NCBI GenBank assembly: GCA_010692425.1
Contig: JAAHHJ010000034.1
Location: forward strand, 1-64,000
Origin: Symploca sp. SIO3C6
GTDB taxonomy: Bacteria > Cyanobacteriota > Cyanobacteriia > Cyanobacteriales > Coleofasciculaceae
Direction: 5' to 3'
Length of the DNA: 64,000 bases
This document shows, piece after piece, positions 5,031-61,173 of the stretch (position 1 is its first letter; each line of letters opens with the position of its first letter). The translations under genes and the position numbers were made by a program. Under the pieces are notes generated by a model. The model saw only the letters and a list, made by a program, of their open reading frames with translations. It was not told where the DNA came from and searched no databases.

Positions 5031-7183
5031 CATGGAACCAGCAACATCCTCTCCTCAATCTCTTCCCAGGTTTTGGGTGATACATGCAGCGCCGTTTCTT
5101 TGCACTGGAGTATTAGCAAATTAGCATAAAAATAATTGTTGATTGCCTCAGTTTCTGCTTGAGATAAATTGATCAGTTCTGGTCTAAGTTTGAATGCATG
5201 AAGCCAGATTTGTAGAATGCGCTTAGCAAATTTTCTACGTATTTTCCCTACTTGTTGATAGTTTGGAAATATAGCTTTTAATTCTTTGAGTCTGGCAATC
5301 AACATAGCAAAGTTTACTTTTTTAAAAATTTTTAACTCTTCCAATTCGCGGGCGTTGGTGATGGCGTTGGTGATGGCGTTGGTGATTGTGCCGGTGTTGG
5401 GGTACTTAATGGCGTTAATGATCCCGTAGGTGCTGGCTTGGGCTATGGAGACAGCGTAGGGAAAGGTGTAGAACTTAGCTATAGTTTTGGTAATGTAGTA
5501 AGAATTTTTGATGTTGATATCGTAGTGGTTGGCGTAGGATCTGGATTTGATCATAGCGATGGCGTAGGCGTAGGCGTAGGCGATGGTATTGGCAATGGCA
5601 CGTTTAGCTGCAGGCTTCAAATCACTTTCTGAGCCAGCCGTTGCCTCTTGTGCCCAACAAAATAAAGCTTGCAACTTAGAGGTGTTGATGCACTGTTGTG
5701 CTTCCTTTTCCATTAACAACAACAACTCATCTACACCACTGCGCATTAACCCTGCCACCAACAAAAACACCTCTTTCCAGCGTTGATTTGTGAGATGTTC
5801 AGTTACTAACTGCTCAATTTGCCGATGGTTATCAATATACTGAGCGGTTAAATATTCCTGTAATGTGAGATGGGAAAATGAGAAGATATCCTCAGCTCTC
5901 TCTACTAGAATTCCCTGTTGCACAGCAATAGCGTGCAACACTGCCTTACCGTTTAAGTGCTGAGGCGCATTCAGATTCCCTGCTAAAAAGGTTTTGATGT
6001 GCTCAATAATCTCTCTTTGAACGAAAAATAGCCTATCTTTCTCAAAACCTTGATAGGCAATTTCCGATAGCAGTATTTCTTCTAACTCTGTATGTAATCC
6101 CTGATAAATTTGATCTCGCAAAATCCGCTTTTCCGAGGCCCATTCTTCCAGTAAGATTCGTAGCGCTTTACGATAGAGAAAACTACGATTATCTGGAAAG
6201 TTTTGTGACTTGTCATAAACCAGACATAAGAAAGTCAGTAATAAAGGAGTCTGGGCTAACTCCTTGACACCAGCATTTTCTGTTTTTTGCAGTAACTCCC
6301 AGCATTTTTGGGCAGTTCCTACCTTTTTATCTGTCTCTGATTGAAACCAATTACGGATAAACTGCTTAATCTGGGCATTATCAAAATCTGCGATCGCTAC
6401 ATCGGTAAACTGTCGAAAATTGCTCCGATAGGCAGCAGTACGACAGGAAGCAATAAAGCGATTTTGAGCATAGCGGTCAACAAAGTCATGAATTTGGATA
6501 ATCACCTGATACATATTCTTGGTTGGCACTTCATCCAACCCATCCAGCAAAATTAGTAACTTACCTTGTTCTAATGCCTTAATTGTAAATTTATCAGCCG
6601 AAGGAAAGCCACAAATAGCAAATTCTTCAGTAATATTTTCCTGAATTTTGACTTTACTGGAGGTAAATCTTTTTAACTCTATGAATACAGGAATACATTG
6701 ATGCTGATACTTACCCTTCTTGCCTTTAAGTGCTTCCAGTCCTATTTTGCGTAGAAAGGTTGACTTTCCAGCTCCAGGTCCACCGAGTAGCATCAGATAT
6801 TGTTTATTATTAGCCGCGTTAATACCTATTTGTTTGGTAATTTTCCTAGACTCATATCTGCGTTCTTCGCTTTGGCGGTAAATTTTTTCTAGCGCCTCAA
6901 TCGACTCAAATCGGATAATATCCTGTTCATGCAACAGTTGAACTGCCGTATAAACTGATTCCAAATTGACTGGCTCTCGCATCCCCAACACCTTGAGCTT
7001 ACCGTGACGTTGGGTGTATTTTTGTGCGTATCGCTTAGATGCACCAGAAATTAGCTTTATAGCCTCGTTTAAGTTTGTGCCAAGCATTCCCAGAGATTTC
7101 CCACCACTAGCCCAAAGCGTTTGGAAAATTGGCACAGCTATACCGCTGATTGCTTGCCCGATGAGAGCTTCAGTTCCTGTCAT
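5024..7183 (-). CDS. NACHT-family NTPase with low-complexity C-terminal region
   Basis: Protein of 719 residues. A helical N-terminal region (1-120) is followed by a NACHT NTPase: Walker A GGPGAGKST at 134-142, Walker B LLILLDGLDEV at 209-219, a sensor-like IASCRTAAYR, and FSFSHLTLQEYLTAQYI in the winged-helix region. Beyond residue 510 the chain becomes repetitive (AYAYAYAIA, then three AITN units), encoded by short DNA repeats at 5350-5590. Bacterial NACHT proteins include STAND-type antiphage proteins, so defence is plausible but not shown. A small HTH-like gene starts just upstream with 47 bases between them, suggesting an operon. The 3' end runs into a Uma2 remnant. Confidence 0.85.
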   Translation of the reverse strand: MTGTEALIGQAISGIAVPIFQTLWASGGKSLGMLGTNLNEAIKLISGASKRYAQKYTQRHGKLKVLGMREPVNLESVYTAVQLLHEQDIIRFESIEALEKIYRQSEERRYESRKITKQIGINAANNKQYLMLLGGPGAGKSTFLRKIGLEALKGKKGKYQHQCIPVFIELKRFTSSKVKIQENITEEFAICGFPSADKFTIKALEQGKLLILLDGLDEVPTKNMYQVIIQIHDFVDRYAQNRFIASCRTAAYRSNFRQFTDVAIADFDNAQIKQFIRNWFQSETDKKVGTAQKCWELLQKTENAGVKELAQTPLLLTFLCLVYDKSQNFPDNRSFLYRKALRILLEEWASEKRILRDQIYQGLHTELEEILLSEIAYQGFEKDRLFFVQREIIEHIKTFLAGNLNAPQHLNGKAVLHAIAVQQGILVERAEDIFSFSHLTLQEYLTAQYIDNHRQIEQLVTEHLTNQRWKEVFLLVAGLMRSGVDELLLLMEKEAQQCINTSKLQALFCWAQEATAGSESDLKPAAKRAIANTIAYAYAYAIAMIKSRSYANHYDINIKNSYYITKTIAKFYTFPYAVSIAQASTYGIINAIKYPNTGTITNAITNAITNARELEELKIFKKVNFAMLIARLKELKAIFPNYQQVGKIRRKFAKRILQIWLHAFKLRPELINLSQAETEAINNYFYANLLILQCKETALHVSPKTWEEIEERMLLVPCN

Positions 7184-49081: not shown

Positions 49082-49912
49082 CTAGCTCTTAGCATCCCAA
49101 ACGGGCTGTTCTATTTTCTCGTAAGCGTCAGCTTGTGGTGCACTGCCGTACCAAGGTTTGCCAGAGAAGTAAACTGCATCCTGAGGTAAAAACGTTCCTT
49201 TGCCAGGTAATGTCATCGGCTGGCGCATGTAGAAGAAGAAGTTTATGTTTGGGTCTTCTGCACCAATCTGTTGGGCAGCTTCCAAGGTGACACCAGAGAC
49301 TTTCTTAACAAGATTATTCCAATCTGCACCACCATATTGAGCTACACTTGGTTTCTTACTCCAATTAACAACACTTTTATAGTACCCGTCAGCTTGCGGT
49401 GCGCTACCCCACCAAGGCTTACCAGAGAAGAATACGGCGTCTCTTGGGTTGAAGGTGCCTTTGCTGGGCAATACCATTCCGTGTCGCATATAAAAGAAGA
49501 AGTTGATATTCGGATCGCCTTCGGCAATCTCTTTGGCTTGTTCTAGTGTAATATCAGATACTCGCCTTACCTCTGCGCCCCAATCGGCTTCACCATACTG
49601 GGCCACATTTTGCACTTTCGTCCATTCCAAATGGGCATTTATGTACCCGTCAGCTTGTGGTGCGCTACCCCACCAGGGATCACCAGAGAAAAAGACAGCA
49701 TCCTGTGGATTAAATTCGCCGCGCCCCGGAAGGATCATGTACTCTCGCATGTAAAAAAAGAAGCCAATATTGTCATCATCTATGGCAATTTTCTTGGCAT
49801 CTTCTAGCGAAATACCAGACTCATGTCGTACTTTTTGTTTCCACATTGAGTCCGGTGCACCACCGTATAGGGCGACATTAGGGACTTTGATTAGTCGTTC
49901 CCAAACTTCCAT
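49082..49912 (-). CDS. Protein of three ~87-residue repeats, family not recognised
   Basis: Protein of 276 residues, almost entirely three tandem repeats (about 1-96, 97-183, 184-270). Each repeat starts with a VAxYGxADW-like motif, then an acidic helix (LEDAKKIAxxDPNI), then the block FFFYMR-x3-M-x-LP-x-KGTF-x-P-x-DAVFFSGKPWWGSAPQAD-x-Y. The aromatic and Gly content suggests a beta-rich binding module. There is no signal peptide or membrane segment. I do not know the family and would not assign a function; a carbohydrate- or ligand-binding repeat protein is one possibility. Confidence 0.7.
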   Translation of the reverse strand: MEVWERLIKVPNVALYGGAPDSMWKQKVRHESGISLEDAKKIAIDDDNIGFFFYMREYMILPGRGEFNPQDAVFFSGDPWWGSAPQADGYINAHLEWTKVQNVAQYGEADWGAEVRRVSDITLEQAKEIAEGDPNINFFFYMRHGMVLPSKGTFNPRDAVFFSGKPWWGSAPQADGYYKSVVNWSKKPSVAQYGGADWNNLVKKVSGVTLEAAQQIGAEDPNINFFFYMRQPMTLPGKGTFLPQDAVYFSGKPWYGSAPQADAYEKIEQPVWDAKS

Positions 49913-50059
49913 TATTGAAACCTCTGATCGAAAGATTGAACTTTGGACAAAATTTGACTTTCTGTCTTCAGTCTGACATTCTTAAGACGATTCCAGAAAG
50001 TAAATTCTGAATTTTTCGAGTTAGAGGCTGTTTTTTCCCAACTTTTTGCCGCCCCTTTA

Positions 50060-50090
50060 CCTACTCCCTATTCCCTACTCCCCACTCCCA
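50060..50090. repeat. GGGGAGTA-type repeat supplying the epimerase stop codon
   Basis: On the minus strand this is GGGAGTGGGGAGTAGG and variants. It encodes the last residues GSGE and the TAG stop of the epimerase gene. A related sequence in the opposite orientation lies at 51903-51942. Confidence 0.65.
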
Positions 50091-51034
50091 TACAAAGATT
50101 TAATCCATTCCCATTCCTTACTCAAACCTTCAGCTAAAGTAACCTGCGGCTGATACCCAATCAATTTCTTCGCCTTAGAAACATCAGCAGCAGTATGACG
50201 GGCGTCTCCCATAGCCCTCTCAATGTGGTTTCTACGAATTTTGCGTCCGACAATTTGTTCCATGGTATCAAGCACATCGGCTAACACCACTCGGCTACCG
50301 CCTCCAATATTGAAAACTTGACCAACTGCTTCTGGTGCCTTAGCAGCAGCGAGATTAGCAGCAACGGCATCGCTAATAAAGGTAAAGTCTCGGGTTTGTT
50401 GCCCATCGCCGTAAATGGGAATTGCCTCATCAGCGATAACCGCCTTGAAGAATTTGTGGAAAGCCATATCTGGGCGCTGGCGAGGGCCATAAACGGTGAA
50501 GTAACGCAGTGCTGTAAAGGGAACGTTAAAGTTCTGGTAATATAGTTGACATAGCCTTTCAGCTGCTAACTTAGTTATCCCATAAGGAGAAACTGGCTGA
50601 GGGCAAATTGATTCTGAGGTAGGTAGGGTTTCAGCATTACCGTACACTGAAGAGGTAGAAGCAAACACTAAACGCTTGAGCTGTGGTGCATCCTTTGCCG
50701 ATTCTAGCAAGATTTGCGTGGCGTTGATATTGCGTTCAGTATAAGCCTGGAAGCCTTTACCCCAGCTAGCACGCACGCCAGCTTGAGCAGCCTGATGATA
50801 GATTACTTCTACATCCTTGAGCAGAGTTTGCCAATCGAGATCCTGAATATTGCCTTCTACTAACTCAAAAGCGGGATGAGCTTCAAAAAGGGCAACATTC
50901 TTGCGCTTGAGTCTGGGGTCATAATAATCATTAAATTGATCAACACCAATTACTCTCTCTCCTTGGCTCAAAAGTGTTTCTACTAGATGAGAACCAATAA
51001 AACCGGCAGCACCAGTAACGATATTAATAGCCAT
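50075..51034 (-). CDS. NAD-dependent nucleotide-sugar epimerase (UDP-glucuronate 4-epimerase-like)
   Basis: Protein of 319 residues, extended SDR: GAAGFIGSHLVETLL (NAD-binding Gly motif), VIYHQAAQAGVRASW, the catalytic Ser/Tyr-x3-Lys region (FASTSSVYGN and SPYGITKLAAERL), and RYFTVYGPRQRPDMAF, typical of UDP-glucuronate epimerases. It makes an activated sugar for surface polysaccharide. It is divergent from the glycan cluster beginning at 52019 across a 984-base spacer. A short repeat has replaced its 3' end, so the C-terminus may be shortened by a few residues. Confidence 0.88.
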   Translation of the reverse strand: MAINIVTGAAGFIGSHLVETLLSQGERVIGVDQFNDYYDPRLKRKNVALFEAHPAFELVEGNIQDLDWQTLLKDVEVIYHQAAQAGVRASWGKGFQAYTERNINATQILLESAKDAPQLKRLVFASTSSVYGNAETLPTSESICPQPVSPYGITKLAAERLCQLYYQNFNVPFTALRYFTVYGPRQRPDMAFHKFFKAVIADEAIPIYGDGQQTRDFTFISDAVAANLAAAKAPEAVGQVFNIGGGSRVVLADVLDTMEQIVGRKIRRNHIERAMGDARHTAADVSKAKKLIGYQPQVTLAEGLSKEWEWIKSLYGSGE

Positions 51035-52018: not shown

Positions 52019-53221
52019 ATGAAAAAACACTTCGTCTATTTTACTAGAGACATTTTACCACGAGCAGAAGCTCATTTAGTTCATGACGTCAATATGGCTA
52101 ATGCTGCTGCTAATCTCGGTTATTCTTCGGTCTTAGTCTATTTAAGCAAAACAGAAGAATCTCGCAATCCAGTTGATTGGTTCTATCCTTTTCGACCTAA
52201 ACAGCCTCAGCCAGAACTGATCAATTTTTATAATATCCAGGATAAACTCAAGGTGAACTCACTGCCAATGCCTTGGCCCATTGGTAAGATCAATAGTAAG
52301 CTGACGACTCCCAGCACAATCATCTGCCGTTACTATTTTCCAGTTCATATTTTTCCTCATACTAAAATTTTACACACTTTAGACTGGAACTTAATCAAAA
52401 CTGCAGTTAAGCACCAGATTCCAGTTATTTATGAGCGGGAACATTTTCAAAAAACTCCCTATGAAAAAGAAATTGTAGAAAGCCCCTTTTTTCAGGTAGC
52501 TGTAACAGTAGCTGATAATGTTCGAGACGATATGATCAAACGGGGAATGCCGCCTGAAAAAATTGTTAAACTCCACAGTGGCTTTAATCAGTCCTTTGCA
52601 GTAAGACAACCGGAGAAAGCAGCGCAGTGGCGCGAGCAGCTGTTGTCAGCAGGACGTAAACAGTTAGTAGTATATTCAGGGGGGCTTTATAAATTTAAAG
52701 GGGTGGATTTGCTGATTGAGGTGGCTCGGGAATTGCCAGAAGTTCAATTTGTCTTTGCCGGAGGTAATGAATCTCAGGTAGAAGCTTACCGACAGCAGGC
52801 GCGACAACAGCAAGCCAACAACGTTACTTTCTTAGGCTACATTAAGCATGAGCAGTTACCAGCCCTATTGCAAGCAGCTGATATTTTAGCTCATCCTCAT
52901 TGTTCTGGGGAAGCGGCAAGTTTCACTTCTCCCTTGAAATTATTTGAGTACATGGCTTCTGGTACTCCAATTGTAGCTACAGAGATTCCCCCTTTAGCTG
53001 AATTTAGGTCTTCAGGAGCAATTGCGGGTTGGTGTGAACCTGATAACCCCACTCAGTTTACTCAATGCCTACAACAGGTATTGACAACTCATCCTCGGAA
53101 AGTAGAAGGATATACCGATAATCTTGAGTTTGCCAGTCAGTTTTCTTGGGAAAACCGGATGGCGAAAATTTTTAGCTGTGTAAAAGAAGAAATGCGTCCG
53201 CAACTGCTAGAGAGTAAGTAA
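52019..53221 (+). CDS. Glycosyltransferase, GT4-like
   Basis: Protein of 400 residues with a GT-B fold. It has an unusual N-terminus (KKHFVYFTRDILPRAEAHLV), then the C-terminal GT4 donor-binding signatures QLVVYSGGLYKFKGVDLLIE, VQFVFAGGNE, NVTFLGYIKHEQLPALLQAAD and EAASFTSPLKLFEYMASGTP (E-x7-E type region). It probably transfers a sugar from a nucleotide donor to a growing glycan. First gene of the 52-58.6 kb cluster. The next gene follows after eight bases. Confidence 0.88.
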   Translation: MKKHFVYFTRDILPRAEAHLVHDVNMANAAANLGYSSVLVYLSKTEESRNPVDWFYPFRPKQPQPELINFYNIQDKLKVNSLPMPWPIGKINSKLTTPSTIICRYYFPVHIFPHTKILHTLDWNLIKTAVKHQIPVIYEREHFQKTPYEKEIVESPFFQVAVTVADNVRDDMIKRGMPPEKIVKLHSGFNQSFAVRQPEKAAQWREQLLSAGRKQLVVYSGGLYKFKGVDLLIEVARELPEVQFVFAGGNESQVEAYRQQARQQQANNVTFLGYIKHEQLPALLQAADILAHPHCSGEAASFTSPLKLFEYMASGTPIVATEIPPLAEFRSSGAIAGWCEPDNPTQFTQCLQQVLTTHPRKVEGYTDNLEFASQFSWENRMAKIFSCVKEEMRPQLLESK

Positions 53222-53229
53222 ATAATACT

Positions 53230-54186
53230 ATGGACAAAAAAATTGTTGGGATGATTTCGGGGTATTCGGCTTTGACACAAAGCGATTGGCTATGGCAGCA
53301 AACGCCTACTCCTTTCGGTGTCTGGGGTAATATTCAAATGCTGGCGCAAGCAGCACAGCCGGATTTTCTACTCATGTACCAATTTAATTTTCCCAGACCA
53401 GCTCCCCAGTTGCCATGGTGGAAGAGTCTTCGCCAAAAGCCAAAACCGCCAGCGCCTGATGTAAATTCACTCCTACGAGGTGTTCCTAAAGAGCGGATTA
53501 TCTTTTTATTGAGGGAACCACCTTTAGATGAGGTGATTAAGAGAAATAAGTTTAATTATGAGGCGGCTAAGCAATATTGTGGTTACATTTCTGGGCCAGA
53601 TGACTTTGCTCCGACTCCTGATTATATGCCTGCTATCTGGTACCATGCCAACTCATTTCGCGAGTTGAATGAAATGGGAGTTCCTCCAAAGGAAAAGACT
53701 TGCAGTTGGATTACTTCTGGTATTAATCGTACTGCTAGCCATCGCCAACGGTTAGAATTTTTGCGACAGTTACAAGCAAGTGAGACCAGTTTAGATTTAT
53801 ATGGTCGCAATTTGCCAAGTTGGTCTAACTCTTCTGGGGAATTAAAAAATAAATGGTACGGAATGGCACCGTATTATTACAATTTGGCAGTTGAGAATTA
53901 TGCCTCAAATGATTGGTATGTGAGCGAAAAATTATGGGATTCACTACTGGCTTGGTGCTTGCCGATTTATTATGGGGGAGCAGCGGCAGATAAGTTGTTA
54001 CCACCCGGTAGCTTTCTCCGGTTGCCCAGCTTGGATGAAAAAGGAATTGCCTATATTAAAGAGGTGACAGCGACGCCAGATGCATGGCACCAAGCTAAGG
54101 AGGCAATCGCCGAAGCACGTCAGATTATCCTGCACAAACTTAACCTGCTCAACTGGTTGTCTGATTTTGTTGACCAATTCTCTTAA
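53230..54186 (+). CDS. GT10-type fucosyltransferase-like glycosyltransferase
   Basis: Protein of 318 residues. The C-terminal half carries the GT10 signature region: YYNLAVENYASNDWYVSEKLWDSLL and AWCLPIYYGG. It fits the alpha-1,3/4-fucosyltransferase fold, and the N-terminal half is variable as expected for an acceptor domain. The fucosyl donor and acceptor are unproven. It sits eight bases after the GT4-like gene and four bases before the next gene. Confidence 0.8.
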   Translation: MDKKIVGMISGYSALTQSDWLWQQTPTPFGVWGNIQMLAQAAQPDFLLMYQFNFPRPAPQLPWWKSLRQKPKPPAPDVNSLLRGVPKERIIFLLREPPLDEVIKRNKFNYEAAKQYCGYISGPDDFAPTPDYMPAIWYHANSFRELNEMGVPPKEKTCSWITSGINRTASHRQRLEFLRQLQASETSLDLYGRNLPSWSNSSGELKNKWYGMAPYYYNLAVENYASNDWYVSEKLWDSLLAWCLPIYYGGAAADKLLPPGSFLRLPSLDEKGIAYIKEVTATPDAWHQAKEAIAEARQIILHKLNLLNWLSDFVDQFS

Positions 54187-54190
54187 AGCT

Positions 54191-55186
54191 ATGGATGGTA
54201 TTTGTACCCTAGGCAATGATAAAGTTTACCAGCAAATAGTTGCTCTGCTCAATAGTATTGAGGCAATCATGGGGCCGGATATGCCTGTATGCATCTATCC
54301 CTATGATCACAACACAGAGCAGATTGCAGCTGAAGTGGCTCGACGTCCCAACGTTCAGTTATACGACGATAAGGCCTCAATCGAGCGATGGGATCTCTTT
54401 GCTCAAAGAGCCTGGGATACCCATCCTGCCGCTAAGCAGCGTTGGAGTCAAAGCGGGAGTTCCGGCTATTATCGATTTGGTACTCATCGGCGTTACTGTG
54501 CCTTTGATGGCCCTTTTGAGCGCTTTCTCTACATGGATGCTGATACTTTGCTGATGGCACCAGTGGATTTCGTATTTGCACAACTTGAAACAAGTGATTG
54601 TGTAGTTTATGATTTTCAGCGCCATGATCCAACTCATGTTTATGATCTGGCTTCAGCCAAGCTAGCAGAGTTATTTCCCACGGAAAGAATTAATCAGGAA
54701 ATATTTTGCTCAGGCTTTTATGCTTCTAAAAAAGATTTGTTTGATGAAGAAAGAAGAAATTGGCTAATCTCAAAACTCCAAACAGGAGATGCTGAAGTTC
54801 TTTATCCGATGGCACCAGACCAAACTTTAATCAACTACATGATGATGAGGTCTAATCTGGCTATCTATAACTTCGCCTTGAATTTACCAAAAGAGGAAAT
54901 TACTGGCTGTTGTGTTACTTCTAGCCATTTTCAGCAACAAAATAATCTGCTTTATGACCATGGCAAACGACTGACTTACATTCATTACATAGGCATAAAA
55001 TTAAATATTTTCAATAGGCTGTGTGCCGGAGAAAATATTGATTTTCCCTATCGTGACCTGTTTTTACACTATCGCTATCTACACGAACCAGAGCAGCGAC
55101 CAAAGTTTACTGGTAAGCCTGAACCCTACAAGACTACTCCTAGTCTGACGACAAAAGTATTGCGCAAACTCGGATTGAATAAATAA
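54191..55186 (+). CDS. GT-A-type glycosyltransferase of a cyanobacterial paralogous pair (1)
   Basis: Protein of 331 residues. GICTLGNDKVYQQIVALLNS and the likely nucleotide/metal motif FERFLYMDADTLLMAP (DAD) suggest a GT-A fold near GT8. It shares its plan with the next gene: IALLNSI, then PYD-x-N and an IDTD/MDADT acid triad. I recall such pairs annotated as Npun_R2821/Npun_R2822-type proteins. The start at 54191 (MDGICTLGND) is chosen because it lies just past the previous stop and matches the paralogue's N-terminus; an upstream in-frame ATG overlaps the previous gene. Confidence 0.72.
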   Translation: MDGICTLGNDKVYQQIVALLNSIEAIMGPDMPVCIYPYDHNTEQIAAEVARRPNVQLYDDKASIERWDLFAQRAWDTHPAAKQRWSQSGSSGYYRFGTHRRYCAFDGPFERFLYMDADTLLMAPVDFVFAQLETSDCVVYDFQRHDPTHVYDLASAKLAELFPTERINQEIFCSGFYASKKDLFDEERRNWLISKLQTGDAEVLYPMAPDQTLINYMMMRSNLAIYNFALNLPKEEITGCCVTSSHFQQQNNLLYDHGKRLTYIHYIGIKLNIFNRLCAGENIDFPYRDLFLHYRYLHEPEQRPKFTGKPEPYKTTPSLTTKVLRKLGLNK

Positions 55187-55196
55187 GGATGTTGCT

Positions 55197-56126
55197 ATGA
55201 GTCGTGGTATTTATATTACTGCTAATGACCGAGTAATTGACCAGACAATTGCTCTGCTCAATAGTATTCGTTTGTATGATCAGGATACTCCGATTGTCTT
55301 AATTCCCTATGATGACAATTATCTAGAAATTGCCAAACTCTTAAAGGAATCCTATAGTGTGCAGGTTTATGAGGATTTAGAATTCATAGACCGCCTTTCT
55401 AAGCAACTATACCAAATTTTTGGCGAAGGCTTTTTTGCCAGGCCTAATCAATTCCGTAAACAAGCCTGCTGGTTTGGTCCTTTTGATGAGTTTATCTACA
55501 TCGATACTGATATCGTTGTTTTTGATAAAATCGCTAAGACGATGGACTACTTCAAAGATAATGATTTTATCTGCTATGACTATCAACACAAGGGCGGCAT
55601 AACTAACGTTTTCTCTTCTCAAGTTATTGCAGAAAATGTCTTTAGCCAAGAAGAGCTACAGGATATGTTTAATGGTGGTTTCTGGGGTTCTAAGAAAGGG
55701 CTAATTTCTGAGGAGATTTTATACGATACTTTTGCTGAATGCGCTGCTCATCCTGAATACTTTGACTTTTCCCAGAAGACTTCAGATCAACCGATCATTA
55801 ATTATATGATTTTGAAGCGCATCCCCAATCGCTTTAACATTGTGCGCAGAGTAGGCGGAGCACCGGGAAGTTGGGCAGGCAGCAAGCATTTCCAACCCCA
55901 AGGTGAACAAATTATCGATCCCAACGTCAATCAACCCCTGGAATATTTACACTGGGCAGGTATTCGCATTCAGCCAGGGTGTGCTTATTGGGATATCTGG
56001 AAGCGCTACCGCTATCTTAATGAAACCATGCCAGATGACGAGTCTTTAAGTACTCCAACTCAGAAAAGTCAGATTCAGCAACTCAAAGAAAAAGTCAAGC
56101 GCTGGCGAATGAATGTATTATCCTGA
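55197..56126 (+). CDS. GT-A-type glycosyltransferase of a cyanobacterial paralogous pair (2)
   Basis: Protein of 309 residues. MSRGIYITANDRVIDQTIALLNS and FGPFDEFIYIDTDIVVFDK (acid DTD motif) match the preceding protein in order. QPIINYMILKR and LEYLHWAGIRI are also shared. Ten bases separate it from the previous gene. The 3' end overlaps the next gene by 14 bases, so translation is probably coupled. The sugar donor is unknown. Confidence 0.7.
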   Translation: MSRGIYITANDRVIDQTIALLNSIRLYDQDTPIVLIPYDDNYLEIAKLLKESYSVQVYEDLEFIDRLSKQLYQIFGEGFFARPNQFRKQACWFGPFDEFIYIDTDIVVFDKIAKTMDYFKDNDFICYDYQHKGGITNVFSSQVIAENVFSQEELQDMFNGGFWGSKKGLISEEILYDTFAECAAHPEYFDFSQKTSDQPIINYMILKRIPNRFNIVRRVGGAPGSWAGSKHFQPQGEQIIDPNVNQPLEYLHWAGIRIQPGCAYWDIWKRYRYLNETMPDDESLSTPTQKSQIQQLKEKVKRWRMNVLS

Positions 56127-56709
56127 GCATCAAGTTATTAGTGTTCATATACCAAAGACAGCAGGCAATAGTATTGCTAGAGGATTAGCCTCTAATGGTT
56201 TTGCTAAAACTGTACTCCTCAAAAAACATGCTAAGGCACAAGAGTATCGAGAGGTAGTGGGCAAGAGAGTTTGGGAAGAGTATTTCACTTTTGCTTTTGT
56301 GAGAAACCCTTGGGATCTAATGGTATCAAGCTATAACTGGTGGCTGCAGAAAGCCTCTAAGTATGAGCAGCTTCATCAAGAGATTGAAGCGATTCGTCAA
56401 TTGGGTAGTTTCCCAGCTTTCATCAATTCTATTTACGGCAGCATGATGGTTAACGAGTATTATGGCTCCATTGTTGACTGGATTTGCGACTGCCGCCAAA
56501 AAGTAATTGTCGAATTTGTTGGTAAGTTTGAAAGCCTTGATAATGATTGGTCTTACATTTGTAAGCGCTTGAGTTTGAAGGAAACGACTCTACCTCATAC
56601 CAATCAAACCTCACGTCGAACTTATCGAGACTACTATGATACCAAGTCAAAAAAAATCGTTGAACAAAGATTTGAATGGGCAATACAGCAATTTGAATAT
56701 AGTTTCTGA
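56113..56709 (+). CDS. Sulfotransferase family 2-like protein
   Basis: Protein of 198 residues. The PAPS-binding motifs are ISVHIPKTAGNSIARGL (5'-phosphosulfate loop) and FAFVRNPWDLMVSSYNWW (3'-phosphate motif). It transfers sulfate from PAPS to a hydroxyl group, probably on a glycan. It overlaps the upstream glycosyltransferase by 14 bases. The C-terminal NQTSRRTYRDYYD segment fits the family. Confidence 0.85.
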   Translation: MYYPEHQVISVHIPKTAGNSIARGLASNGFAKTVLLKKHAKAQEYREVVGKRVWEEYFTFAFVRNPWDLMVSSYNWWLQKASKYEQLHQEIEAIRQLGSFPAFINSIYGSMMVNEYYGSIVDWICDCRQKVIVEFVGKFESLDNDWSYICKRLSLKETTLPHTNQTSRRTYRDYYDTKSKKIVEQRFEWAIQQFEYSF

Positions 56710-56758
56710 TCAAGATTAATTTATGAGTACATTCCGACAGCAATAACCCAAAAGTCCT

Positions 56759-57745
56759 ATGAATGTTAAACCTATTCTATCTATCGTTACCCCAACTCTC
56801 GGAAAATTCTCTGATTATTGGCTTGAATGTCTTCTGCAAGTGGAAGGAGATGTTCAGTTTCTTTTCGTTTATCCTCCTCAGAGTCAACCCAGAGTAATCA
56901 ATGATCCCAGAGTGCAAGTTTTAACTAGCCCCTACAAAGGCGAAATGATGCAGCGATTTGTAGGTTTACTCAATGCAGCAGGAGAATACGTCTTAGCTTT
57001 AGATGACGATGACTTTGTACATCCCCAAGTATGTGAATTGACTAAGCAATATTTTAATAGATTCTCTAATAGTTGGGTTCTCAGATTACAAAAAGCAGTT
57101 ATCGATATTTCTGATCAAGAACGTATCAAGAAACCTTGGAATCCTATCCCTGATGTTGGACAACTAGAAATATGTAAAAAAACGCCTGAAAATCCCTATC
57201 CTTTTCAAAAAGGGAACTATAAAGGTTTATTAGAACTTCCCATTGCTCCTCTAGATAAAAGCTTTGATTATCGTTATCTGATCTGGCCTTTTATTCAAAG
57301 AAGAGATAATGAAGGCTATCATTTTGAAAATTTTAATAACATCGTCTGGAAGAATGAGCGCATTAAACAAGCTCTCCCTGAAATTGCCCAGGCAACCAAG
57401 GTAATGGGAGCAATTACCTGGATACCCTCCACAGGTTTTGATCGGCTATCTGGTTTATTTGTACAGGCTAAATCCTTTCAGAAAGATGCAATCATCGGTC
57501 ATTGGATGCCGAAACCAGAACAAGTTAGATATATCGATAAAGACCCAGCGCTAAAAGCTGCTAGATTTCACGTTATTTCAGATGTATTATTGGTGAAATT
57601 TTTCCCCCAATATGGCTATTTATGGAATCTTTTCTTCAGTAAATTATATGGTGTACCCAGAACAGTTGGAAAATTAGTCAAAATGAAGTTTTTAAAAAAG
57701 CAAACTCATTCTAAAATAAATAAAAAATTATCTGAAAAGACATGA
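56759..57745 (+). CDS. Glycosyltransferase family 2-like protein
   Basis: Protein of 328 residues. The N-terminal GT-A domain has LSIVTPTLGKFSDYWLECLL and the DxD motif YVLALDDDDFVHP. The C-terminal half is basic, and I could not assign it. The start ATG is 49 bases after the sulfotransferase. The following gene overlaps its stop by four bases (ATGA type), indicating translational coupling. Confidence 0.78.
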   Translation: MNVKPILSIVTPTLGKFSDYWLECLLQVEGDVQFLFVYPPQSQPRVINDPRVQVLTSPYKGEMMQRFVGLLNAAGEYVLALDDDDFVHPQVCELTKQYFNRFSNSWVLRLQKAVIDISDQERIKKPWNPIPDVGQLEICKKTPENPYPFQKGNYKGLLELPIAPLDKSFDYRYLIWPFIQRRDNEGYHFENFNNIVWKNERIKQALPEIAQATKVMGAITWIPSTGFDRLSGLFVQAKSFQKDAIIGHWMPKPEQVRYIDKDPALKAARFHVISDVLLVKFFPQYGYLWNLFFSKLYGVPRTVGKLVKMKFLKKQTHSKINKKLSEKT

Positions 57746-58605
57746 ATAATCTACCAGATTTCATCATTATTGGTGCAGGCAAATGCGGTACCACTTCCTT
57801 GCATGATTATCTAGATCAACATCCTCAAATTTATATTTGTCCTCAAAAAGAAACTAATTTCTTTATTGATGAAGCGACGAAAAACAAACTCAAGAGATGG
57901 AACCCAATTACTAGTATTGAAGACTACTCTGCTTTGTTTAAAAATGCTAGTCCAAATCAAGTAATTGGAGAAATTTCTACTAACTACTATGCCTTTCCAG
58001 AATCAGCACAACTAATTCACGATCTTCTCCCAGAGGTTAAAATAATTGCTATTTTGAGAGACCCTACCAATCGAGCCTTCTCAGAATATCAAATGTTTGT
58101 GCGGGCTGGTCATGAAAAAAGGGATTTTGCTGAAGCGATTTCTGACAGCCAGAGGAAAAGCTACGTAAAAAGGGGTTTATATTACTCAGAATTACTTCCT
58201 TTTTTTGATACCTTTGACAGGGATAAAATAAAAATTTGTTTGTATGAAGATTTTAACAAAGAACCTGAGAAATTTGTCCAGGATTTCTTTCAATTTATTG
58301 AAGTAGATGATAATTTCATGCCCGATATGACTCAAAGGGGTAGAACAGGTGGACTACCCAAAAATAAAGCTTTAAACGAATTTCTCAAGAAGCCCAATCC
58401 AGTTAGAGCAGCCGCAGCTTCTATACTGAAAACATTTATGCCTCTAGAATCTAGACAAAAACTAAAATCAAATATTATCCAAGCGAACTCAAAAAAGGCA
58501 ACACTATTTCCGGAAACTAGGAGCAAATTGATTGAATTTTATCGCGAAGATATTTTGAAGCTGCAAGACTTAATTGAACGAGATTTATCTGCCTGGTTGG
58601 AGTAA
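57742..58605 (+). CDS. Sulfotransferase domain protein
   Basis: Protein of 287 residues. The PAPS 5'-loop is FIIIGAGKCGTTSLHDYL; the 3'-phosphate motif is KIIAILRDPTNRAFSEYQMF; EISTNYYAFPES follows the family order. Its sequence differs from the smaller sulfotransferase at 56113. It is the last gene of the glycan cluster. Two sulfotransferases in one cluster point to a sulfated product. Confidence 0.87.
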   Translation: MNNLPDFIIIGAGKCGTTSLHDYLDQHPQIYICPQKETNFFIDEATKNKLKRWNPITSIEDYSALFKNASPNQVIGEISTNYYAFPESAQLIHDLLPEVKIIAILRDPTNRAFSEYQMFVRAGHEKRDFAEAISDSQRKSYVKRGLYYSELLPFFDTFDRDKIKICLYEDFNKEPEKFVQDFFQFIEVDDNFMPDMTQRGRTGGLPKNKALNEFLKKPNPVRAAAASILKTFMPLESRQKLKSNIIQANSKKATLFPETRSKLIEFYREDILKLQDLIERDLSAWLE

Positions 58606-58778
58606 ACTTTGTGTATTAAAAATACACAACAACAAGGCAGAAGACAGGAGACATAAGGCAGAATGAGCAAGAGTTTGGGTCATTAACTAGTATCAAATAA
58701 ATATATGATTTAAATGCGTAATAGCTTAATACCAATCTAGTTTAGCTAGTATATTTATTGAAACTAATGTTCAGAAAC

Positions 58779-59399
58779 TCAACTCTCCCAGGCTGCCTCA
58801 AAGAAGTCTAGCTCACACAACATTGCATAGCGATAAGTTGATTTTATAGATGCTGTGAGTTGAGGGCATCGGTTAGTTAAATTCTCTAGTCTCTGAGCTA
58901 ATTTCTCAAACTCCTGATTGCTATAGGTACGAATCCACTCAGTATACTGGTGATTACCAATTCCATCCTTTGCTAATTGTTGGCCTAAGAAAGTATATAA
59001 GCGCATGCAGGGTGTCATGGCTGTAGCAATTAAACTGATATCACTACCCCAGGCTGTCGCCATTAAAAAATCGGTGTAGCGACGGGTAGCTGTAGTTGGT
59101 TCCACCTGTTGCCAATCTACTCCCCATAAGTTAGCGTAACTTTTGTGAAGCTTTAGTTCTTCAATCACTCCCCCTGCCAGGGAATGAAATGTGTTAAATC
59201 CTTCCCAATCGTCAGACTTAGCAGCTGCCAGACTATAAGCACGAGCAAAAGCTTCTAGGAAAAAGAAATCTTGAGCAACGTAGTAGGCGAATTTACTGCT
59301 CTCAAGGTTGCCTGTAGCGATTCCTTGTATAAAGGGGTGTTTAAGACATTGTTGTGCTATGTCCTGATTAGACTGCCATAAATCCGCGCTGATAGCCAT
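58779..59399 (-). CDS. tenA: TenA/thiaminase II-like protein
   Basis: Protein of 206 residues in the TenA fold: HPFIQGIATGNLESSKFAYY, ARAYSLAAAKSDDWEGF, MTPCMRLYTFLGQQL (candidate nucleophile Cys) and the C-terminal CELDFFEAAWES (candidate catalytic Glu). TenA family members salvage or degrade thiamine breakdown products. The ATG at 59399 is used; a GTG lies two codons upstream. No thi genes are nearby. Confidence 0.88.
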   Translation of the reverse strand: MAISADLWQSNQDIAQQCLKHPFIQGIATGNLESSKFAYYVAQDFFFLEAFARAYSLAAAKSDDWEGFNTFHSLAGGVIEELKLHKSYANLWGVDWQQVEPTTATRRYTDFLMATAWGSDISLIATAMTPCMRLYTFLGQQLAKDGIGNHQYTEWIRTYSNQEFEKLAQRLENLTNRCPQLTASIKSTYRYAMLCELDFFEAAWES

Positions 59400-59544
59400 G
59401 ACCACTTTTTTGACCTATCCTGGCGTTAAAACAACACTGAATTTAACATCTGAGGAATATGAAGTTCCATATCAAGGAAGCTGGCAACAGAGGTGTAGGA
59501 ATCTTCTGTGATGATGACTACTTGACAAGAGCCGTAATTCTCAG

Positions 59545-59724
59545 TTAGAGTTTGTGAAATTTCCTAGCCTCTACAGTGGCTGAGTGCAAGTGTTCCAAGG
59601 TTTGAAACTCGATTGCTGGCAGCTGCTCTGCTGAAGATATAGTGGTTGTGGCGACTCCACTAACGTTCAGAGACAAGTAAGCAGAGAAGGTAACTGTGGC
59701 AGCTAGTATTAATTTTTCAAGCAT
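59545..59724 (-). CDS. Small exported protein, 59 residues
   Basis: The ATG follows a near-perfect Shine-Dalgarno (AGGAGGAAAGTGCG). The reading frame gives MLEKLILAATVTFSAYLSLN, a likely signal peptide, then a polar tail with SAEQLPAIEF and ARKFHKL, ending at a TAA. The excellent ribosome binding site and signal peptide make it a credible gene. Function is unknown. It lies between tenA and the glycosyltransferase at 59959. Confidence 0.6.
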   Translation of the reverse strand: MLEKLILAATVTFSAYLSLNVSGVATTTISSAEQLPAIEFQTLEHLHSATVEARKFHKL

Positions 59725-59958
59725 CGCACTTTCCTCCTATTGCAGCTGAGTTACTAGTTAGTAACCATATTCTTAATATCCCAGATTTTCATCGGGCTGT
59801 AGGTGATTGCATCTTAGGAGAGTTAGTGAGTATTCTCTTGGAGTTTTGTGATCTAAGCCCTTGACAAATCTATTTTTGCTGGTCTATGCATGGAAACTTA
59901 AAGATAACGTGAGTTTGATAGATTAGGAACCGCACCTCATTGCCACTGGGTTGACTTA

Positions 59959-61173
59959 ATGAAGATTTTATTTTTACATCCTAACTTCCCTGCTCAGTTT
60001 CGCCACCTAGCCGTCGCCTTAGCCAAGAATAATCATCATCAAGTTGTCTTTGGCACCAAACGCCGTGAAGGCGCACTTTCTGGGGTTAATAAAGTACTTT
60101 ACGCACCCTCCCGCCAAGCTCGCCCAGAAACTCATCACTATGTCCGCCCCCTAGAAAATGCAGTGCTTGAGGGACAAGCAGTCTATAGAATGGCAGAAAA
60201 ACTCAAGAGTCAAGGTTTTATTCCCGATATAGTCTATGGTCATTCCGGCTGGGGACCAACTTTATTTATCAAGGATGCTTTCCCCAAGGCAACTTTACTG
60301 TGCTATTTCGAGTGGTTCTACCATGCCCACGGTTCCGATGCCGACTTTGATCCCTCTGAAGAGCTTAACGCCGACGATGAAGCTCGGATTCGCACCAAAA
60401 ATGCCCCTATTTTGCTAGATTTGTACGGTTGCGATCGCGGTCTTTCTCCTACTTACTGGCAGCGACAGCAGTTTCCACCAGAATTTCACAGTAAACTTAA
60501 TGTCTGTCATGATGGCATTAATACTGAGTTTTTTCAACCTCAGCCGGGAGCAAAGTTGGTTTTGCCTCGAATCAATCTAGACCTTTCTCAAGTTGAAGAA
60601 CTAATTACCTATGTAGCGCGGGGTATGGAACCCTATCGTGGTTTTCCCCAATTTATCGAAACCATCGGTATCCTACAGCAGCGACGCCCCCATTGTCATG
60701 CCGTGATTGTTGGGGAAAACCGAGTTGCCTACGGCAAGAATCTACCAGATGGCAAAACTTACAAAGAGTTGATGCTGGAAAAAGTACCCCTTGACTTAGA
60801 AAGAGTTCACTTTACAGGTTTGCTTCCCTATTCTGAATACTTGCAAGTACTCCAAGCCTCCTCTGTACATGTCTATCTCACTCGTCCCTTTGTGCTATCT
60901 TGGTCAATGCTAGAATCTCTGGGCGCTGGTTGCTTGGTGGTGGCTTCCAATACTGCCCCAGTCACTGAGGTAATTCAAGATGGGATTAATGGTTTGCTTG
61001 TAGACTTTTTCTCACCTCAGGAAATTGCAGAGCGAGTGGAGGAAGCCCTAGATCATCCTAATCGCATGGAGCAAATACGAGCTAAAGCACGGGAGACTAT
61101 TCAGGAAAATTATAATTTAGCGCAGTTATTGCCACAGCACTTGCAGTGGGTAGAGCAGGCAGTTGAAAATTGA
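59959..61173 (+). CDS. Glycosyltransferase, GT4-like (family 1 type)
   Basis: Protein of 404 residues. GT-B fold: KILFLHPNFPAQFRHLAVAL at the N-terminus, ITYVARGMEPYRGFPQFIE, RVHFTGLLPYSEYLQVLQAS and LSWSMLESLGAGCLVVASN (EX7E-like Glu region). It resembles cyanobacterial sugar transferases of polysaccharide loci. It is separated from the main glycan cluster by tenA and lies in the same direction. The N-terminal starts at an ATG with weak ribosome binding signal. Confidence 0.88.
   Translation: MKILFLHPNFPAQFRHLAVALAKNNHHQVVFGTKRREGALSGVNKVLYAPSRQARPETHHYVRPLENAVLEGQAVYRMAEKLKSQGFIPDIVYGHSGWGPTLFIKDAFPKATLLCYFEWFYHAHGSDADFDPSEELNADDEARIRTKNAPILLDLYGCDRGLSPTYWQRQQFPPEFHSKLNVCHDGINTEFFQPQPGAKLVLPRINLDLSQVEELITYVARGMEPYRGFPQFIETIGILQQRRPHCHAVIVGENRVAYGKNLPDGKTYKELMLEKVPLDLERVHFTGLLPYSEYLQVLQASSVHVYLTRPFVLSWSMLESLGAGCLVVASNTAPVTEVIQDGINGLLVDFFSPQEIAERVEEALDHPNRMEQIRAKARETIQENYNLAQLLPQHLQWVEQAVEN

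Follow-up and report, generated by a model that had tools for sequence, protein, structure and literature searches.

PAN/apple domains (Pfam families PF00024, PAN_1, and PF14295, PAN_4), among them the HGF N-domain, the plasminogen PAN domain, the apple domain of factor XI and the Sarcocystis lectin SML-2, are known sugar or protein binders and often occur in tandem. Each of these domains has two disulfides between its helix and the strand next to it (PMC9024836). The oomycete cellulose-binding lectin CBEL, a galactose/GalNAc lectin, contains two PAN/apple domains with the PAN disulfides, is secreted and also carries CBM1 modules (PMC3532174). MVL, the mannan-binding lectin of the cyanobacterium Microcystis viridis (PF12151), is a small, internally repeated protein with 54-residue repeats; the smallest structure that it targets is the Man-Man-GlcNAc-GlcNAc core of oligomannosides (PMC3407925). 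Non-catalytic accessory sugar-binding domains are also found on endo-beta-N-acetylglucosaminidases.

The protein described here is encoded in a 64,000-nucleotide stretch of the genome of the marine cyanobacterium Symploca sp. SIO3C6 (hereafter, the window). Its domains resemble the PAN/apple domains in predicted fold (Z up to 10.1 over 73-78 residues) and in their tandem arrangement; however, they lack the canonical disulfides and any Pfam PAN score, possess a signature of their own, SGxPW[WY]GSAPQ, and in part of the family contain an alternative cysteine pair. With CBEL the window protein shares repeated, non-catalytic domains of the PAN fold, predicted in our case; the lectin activity is that of CBEL and is likewise putative here. 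It is similar to MVL in being a small cyanobacterial protein built of repeats, but the sequences are unrelated and the repeats in the window protein are of 87 residues. As to the accessory domains of the endoglycosidases, the likeness is that relatives of the window protein carry a non-catalytic domain joined to an Endo H-like enzyme, whereas the sequence family is another one, and the window protein itself has a PAN-like predicted fold and no enzyme part.

The gene and its repeats

The gene occupies positions 49082-49912 of the window on the minus strand and comprises 276 codons, from an ATG start to a TAG stop, which encode three tandem domains, predicted to be PAN-like. The sequence AGAGG (49921-49925, minus strand), 8 nt 5' of the ATG, is a likely ribosome-binding site; promoter and terminator scans yielded numbers of sites not above those in shuffled sequences. 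The translated protein contains no cysteine residues, and no signal peptide is apparent from its sequence.

An earlier, sequence-only reading of the window had described three repeats of about 87 residues making up nearly the whole protein, and both observations were confirmed. Repeat 1 (49631-49903; HMM match with E 5e-49), repeat 2 (49373-49627; also an HMM match) and repeat 3 (49106-49366; E 5e-51), all on the minus strand, follow each other with a spacing of 87 residues and span almost the entire ORF. The conserved loop FSGxPW[WY]GSAP, which a motif scan located at 49659-49690 in repeat 1 and which is strongly conserved in the family alignment, has further copies at 49398-49429 and 49137-49168 on the same strand, so that its core recurs with an exact 261-bp periodicity, the chance expectation being 0 matches. 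Pairwise alignments of the repeats scored 222-279, and the best score among 200 shuffles of one repeat was -4. Between repeats 2 and 3, identity is 65% in protein and likewise 65% in DNA, which indicates an old duplication and not an artefact of recent origin at the DNA level. An intact gene 97% identical to that of the window is present in Symploca sp. SIO2E9, the sister genome (dN 0.011, dS 0.073, dN/dS about 0.15); these values, together with the intact frame, point to a protein-coding gene under purifying selection.

Comparison with databases and predicted fold

The window protein produced no match above the cut-off in Pfam, NCBIfam or PHROG, and specifically none to the MVL model PF12151 in Pfam; no significant match in a PDB sequence search; and no match to anti-phage families. 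The Pfam search with 28 family members revealed no significant matches either, and PAN_1 and PAN_4 were unlisted at E up to 10 both for the window protein and for these members. PAN_4 was found neither in the window's genome nor in 19 relatives, a search in which no control genome gave a match either. Two hits, Pfam CFAP68 (E 0.008) and a zinc metallohydrolase from the PDB (E 0.16), were rejected, being below the cut-off, partial and not common to the family. A literature search for the family motif returned no match. The domain thus belongs to a family covered by no curated model in the libraries searched, and the earlier remark that no family could be recognised holds for Pfam, NCBIfam, PHROGs and PDB sequences, as well as for Pfam with the 28 members; at the sequence level, no clear match to a known domain emerged.

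Structure prediction gave a different picture. An AlphaFold2 model of repeat 2, built with the 28-domain alignment, reached a pLDDT of 90.7 and a pTM of 0.81, and VIA-align placed the plasminogen PAN domain and HGF NK1 on top of its structural matches (Z 10.1, rmsd 2.0-2.2, 73-76 residues); the best 50 matches were almost all PAN/apple proteins, and the apple domains of factor XI and kallikrein were among the matches. The best rows of the Foldseek search against the PDB were mostly PAN/apple or PAN-containing proteins, with weak E-values (the best 0.06), and the matches in BFVD were mainly giant-virus proteins annotated as PAN/apple (best E 0.0014). The full-length AlphaFold2 model, for which only three sequences were available, had a pLDDT of 63 and exhibited the same helix-strand pattern three times. 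Based on these models, the repeat very probably adopts the PAN/apple fold, an antiparallel beta sheet packed on one helix. Hence, of the earlier proposal of an undescribed binding domain, the novelty does not extend to the predicted fold, which is a familiar one, but the absence of a curated family stands, and the partners and neighbours discussed below point to glycan binding.

Four cysteines are invariant in the 21 bacterial PAN_4 domains that we compared with the family. The hhalign comparison of the family with these domains came out in the expected register with a probability of 0.4% and E 0.13, which is not significant. In the register of this non-significant alignment, helix position n of the family is Ala in 28/28 domains, position n+4 is Cys in only 4 of the 28, and position n+10 is Ile, Val or a gap, never Cys. 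Judging from the sequences, the two canonical PAN disulfides are absent from the family, of which the cysteine-free window protein is one member. As these disulfides are missing and the hhalign match to PAN_4 is not significant, we do not file the domain in a PAN family of Pfam; according to the model, it has a PAN-like fold and may function like PAN.

Another pair of cysteines, one in FFFY-C and one in SAPQ-C, is present in 18 of the 28 domains and absent in the other ten, and neither residue ever occurs singly (Fisher p 8e-8, relatedness not corrected). From this strict co-occurrence, some members of the family may have an alternative disulfide. In several proteins with the pair the domain stands at the very start of the chain, and by eye these proteins have no signal peptide. 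The conservation peak of the family alignment is the Trp/Tyr-bearing loop with the signature SGxPW[WY]GSAPQ, and the invariant residues include Ala, Phe, Gly, and Pro.

Distribution of the family

A degenerate DNA pattern built from the conserved loop was scanned against about 85,000 species genomes, one per species, and found 62 loci: the sister and Spirulina genes (2), 23 further relatives recognised by HMM (E 4e-38 to 2e-9), and about 37 chance matches; the list of relatives is biased towards copies that fit the pattern. The relatives belong to Bacteroidota, Pseudomonadota, Acidobacteriota, Calditrichota, Myxococcota and Cyanobacteriota, i.e., to at least six bacterial phyla, and one to a Poseidoniales archaeon. 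Each of the 19 genomes checked has one domain locus. With the centre genome counted, the domain was found in 2/247 genomes of Bacteroidota, in 1/249 of Pseudomonadota and in 2/121 of one Flavobacterium genus set. In the order set, three of the 389 genomes carry it (Spirulina sp. SIO3F2 besides the window genome and its sister), and in two overlapping draws from the cyanobacterial phylum it is present in the window's own genome alone. The domain is therefore rare and very patchy in its distribution. A single-domain copy was retrieved by the pattern scan from a Synechococcus single-cell genome (L074). Three weak cyanobacterial matches (L004-L006, E about 0.007), partial and devoid of the family motif, were taken as chance. 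Searches of plasmid and phage collections with the window protein and with a Bacteroidetes copy gave no match, and no relative was found in viral contigs, where the sole pattern match (L017) showed no domain. In Fodinibius halophilus (L098; L078 718-1077), the domain match crosses in-frame stops, reflecting either a decayed gene or an assembly error.

The protein of Spirulina sp. SIO3F2 has an N-terminal DUF2853 followed by three repeats of its own. In the tree, the three repeats of the window protein form one group (95/91), apart from those of Spirulina, with the deeper branches weak, which suggests that the triplications occurred separately in the two lineages. In the third Spirulina repeat (L075 2607-2864), a decaying or re-purposed copy, the SGxPW motif has been lost, and no branch of the tree is longer than that of this repeat (2.57). 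In the region L015 9366-12926, the Spirulina three-repeat gene follows closely downstream of another gene, whose 746-aa product by eye looks like an N-terminal sugar-binding domain of the LamG type with a C-terminal clostripain-type peptidase; the C-terminal 282 aa of this product gave no match in Pfam.

Fusion partners and lectin neighbours

In other organisms unrelated enzymes are joined to the domain, on one side of the chain or the other. In nine relatives (L018, L020, L023, L024, L025, L044, L050, L059, and L069) it lies N-terminal to apparently the same Endo H-like enzyme; two of these fusions matched NCBIfam Endoglyc_H when scanned (E 1e-33 and 6e-30), and the other seven were assigned by reading the sequences. 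The enzyme part of L018 also matches solved Endo H (E 6e-25). Endo H cleaves between the two GlcNAc residues of the Man-Man-GlcNAc-GlcNAc core. One more fusion is with a tyrosinase (L033), and another with an AbfB sugar-binding domain (L079). In seven relatives (L027, L030, L032, L034, L037, L047, and L052), an unassigned domain precedes the present one, which is followed by a Cys-rich tail. The N-terminal part in L030 (6288-7001) and its equivalents in the other six contain a DxxDxDxE motif reminiscent of GH18; it has no match in Pfam, NCBIfam or PDB, and, since its sequence could be linked neither to GH18 nor to any solved structure, we do not call it GH18.

A gene for the MVL mannan-binding lectin is situated directly upstream of the fusion in four Flavobacterium loci with the Endo H-like architecture, L018 (MVL gene at 6299-6643), L020, L024 (6199-6543) and L050, and two such genes (5638-5985 and 6073-6420) precede the fusion in L027, a Bacteroidetes MAG with the other, Cys-rich-tailed architecture. 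None was found at the other 57 pattern loci, and in the five genomes concerned the MVL matches are confined to these loci. Since four of the five loci are from Flavobacterium, they represent two lineages at most and not five independent events. The window gene is neither adjacent to an MVL gene nor part of an enzyme fusion, and a search of the window's genome for MVL genes gave none.

Possible function

We suppose, with confidence slightly better than even, that the three tandem domains of the predicted PAN/apple fold, devoid of the canonical disulfides, constitute a trivalent lectin-like binder. Each domain would weakly bind a glycan, the conserved SG-x-P-W-[WY]-G-S-A-P-Q loop being the putative site, and the three copies would combine to provide avidity; elsewhere, a single copy probably places a catalytic domain, such as the Endo H-like enzyme or tyrosinase, on glycoprotein or polysaccharide substrates. 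The domain is probably an unrecognised sugar-binding one, because its predicted fold is PAN/apple-like and because in other organisms it is attached to enzymes cutting the sugar chains of glycoproteins; the fold, the fusions, the neighbours and the conservation peak in the Trp/Tyr loop all argue for sugar binding, and the loop as the site and the avidity are likewise putative. Several points weigh against the lectin reading: some PAN folds bind proteins only, the window gene has neither an MVL neighbour nor an enzyme partner, a single genus accounts for four of the five MVL neighbours, the best Foldseek value in the PDB is weak, and the match to the PAN_4 profile is not significant. Besides, given the lack of an apparent signal peptide, contact with an external glycan would need another export route or lysis. 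More tentative, and in our opinion rather doubtful, is a broader reading, in which a widespread PAN-fold family, absent from present domain libraries and lacking the canonical disulfides, serves as a carbohydrate-recognition domain for eukaryote-type N-glycans; it would direct the Endo H-like enzymes that stand beside MVL to their targets, and two cyanobacteria would each have triplicated it independently to give free-standing multivalent lectins.

The main rival to the lectin reading is a PAN-fold adaptor, whose three domains would hold a protein partner rather than sugars and which, in the fusions, would serve to tether the enzyme to a protein. The structural matches include apple domains of factor XI and kallikrein, which bind kininogen, an internal partner would suit a protein with no apparent signal peptide, and the Spirulina repeats follow DUF2853 and not a glycan enzyme; on the other hand, the enzyme partners and the MVL neighbours act on glycans, and we regard the adaptor as unlikely. 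The domain might also be a structural spacer or stabilising element without a ligand of its own, the loop being needed for folding and the tandem form being a by-product of duplication. The invariant Ala, Phe, Gly and Pro could indeed be purely structural, but a stand-alone protein of three copies is maintained by purifying selection, the Trp/Tyr residues of the loop are of the exposed type, and the domain moves between unrelated enzymes to either side of the chain, all of which makes such a role quite improbable. Finally, the great rarity of the domain, encountered in the cyanobacterial sets in only one Spirulina besides the window genome and its sister, would suit a chance or non-functional ORF; the selection signal, with the frame intact in the sister genome, disfavours this explanation, as does the conservation of the domain across phyla, and we consider it scarcely credible.

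If these readings are correct, an unnamed binding domain, recognisable by its signature loop, would enter the annotation of bacterial glycan-processing enzymes, including the Endo H-like ones, which are a tool of glycobiology. It would also mean that the PAN/apple fold functions without its hallmark disulfides, whose absence should facilitate production in the bacterial cytoplasm, and the family is a new candidate family of cyanobacterial lectins.

Genomic context of the window gene

A gene for an NAD-dependent nucleotide-sugar epimerase (50075-51034, minus strand; Pfam Epimerase, E 1e-55) is located 162 bp upstream of the repeat gene on the same strand and is considered here as context only; the order of the two genes is preserved in the sister genome. 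Further on, the region 52019-61173 on the plus strand contains glycosyltransferase genes, a gene of the GT10 fucosyltransferase family, a putative mannosyltransferase gene and two sulfotransferase genes, possibly for a sulfated, fucosylated surface polysaccharide. This run is collinear in the sister genome, the common order being known from these two close genomes only. The glycan genes of the window, from the epimerase and glycosyltransferases to the GT10 and sulfotransferase genes, are compatible with a glycan role of the repeat protein. The sister cyanobacterium (L139 202-1626) encodes a protein of 474 aa that has a likely signal peptide and a weak MVL score (E 6e-5), the match seeming to lie within its Cys-rich C-terminal tail.
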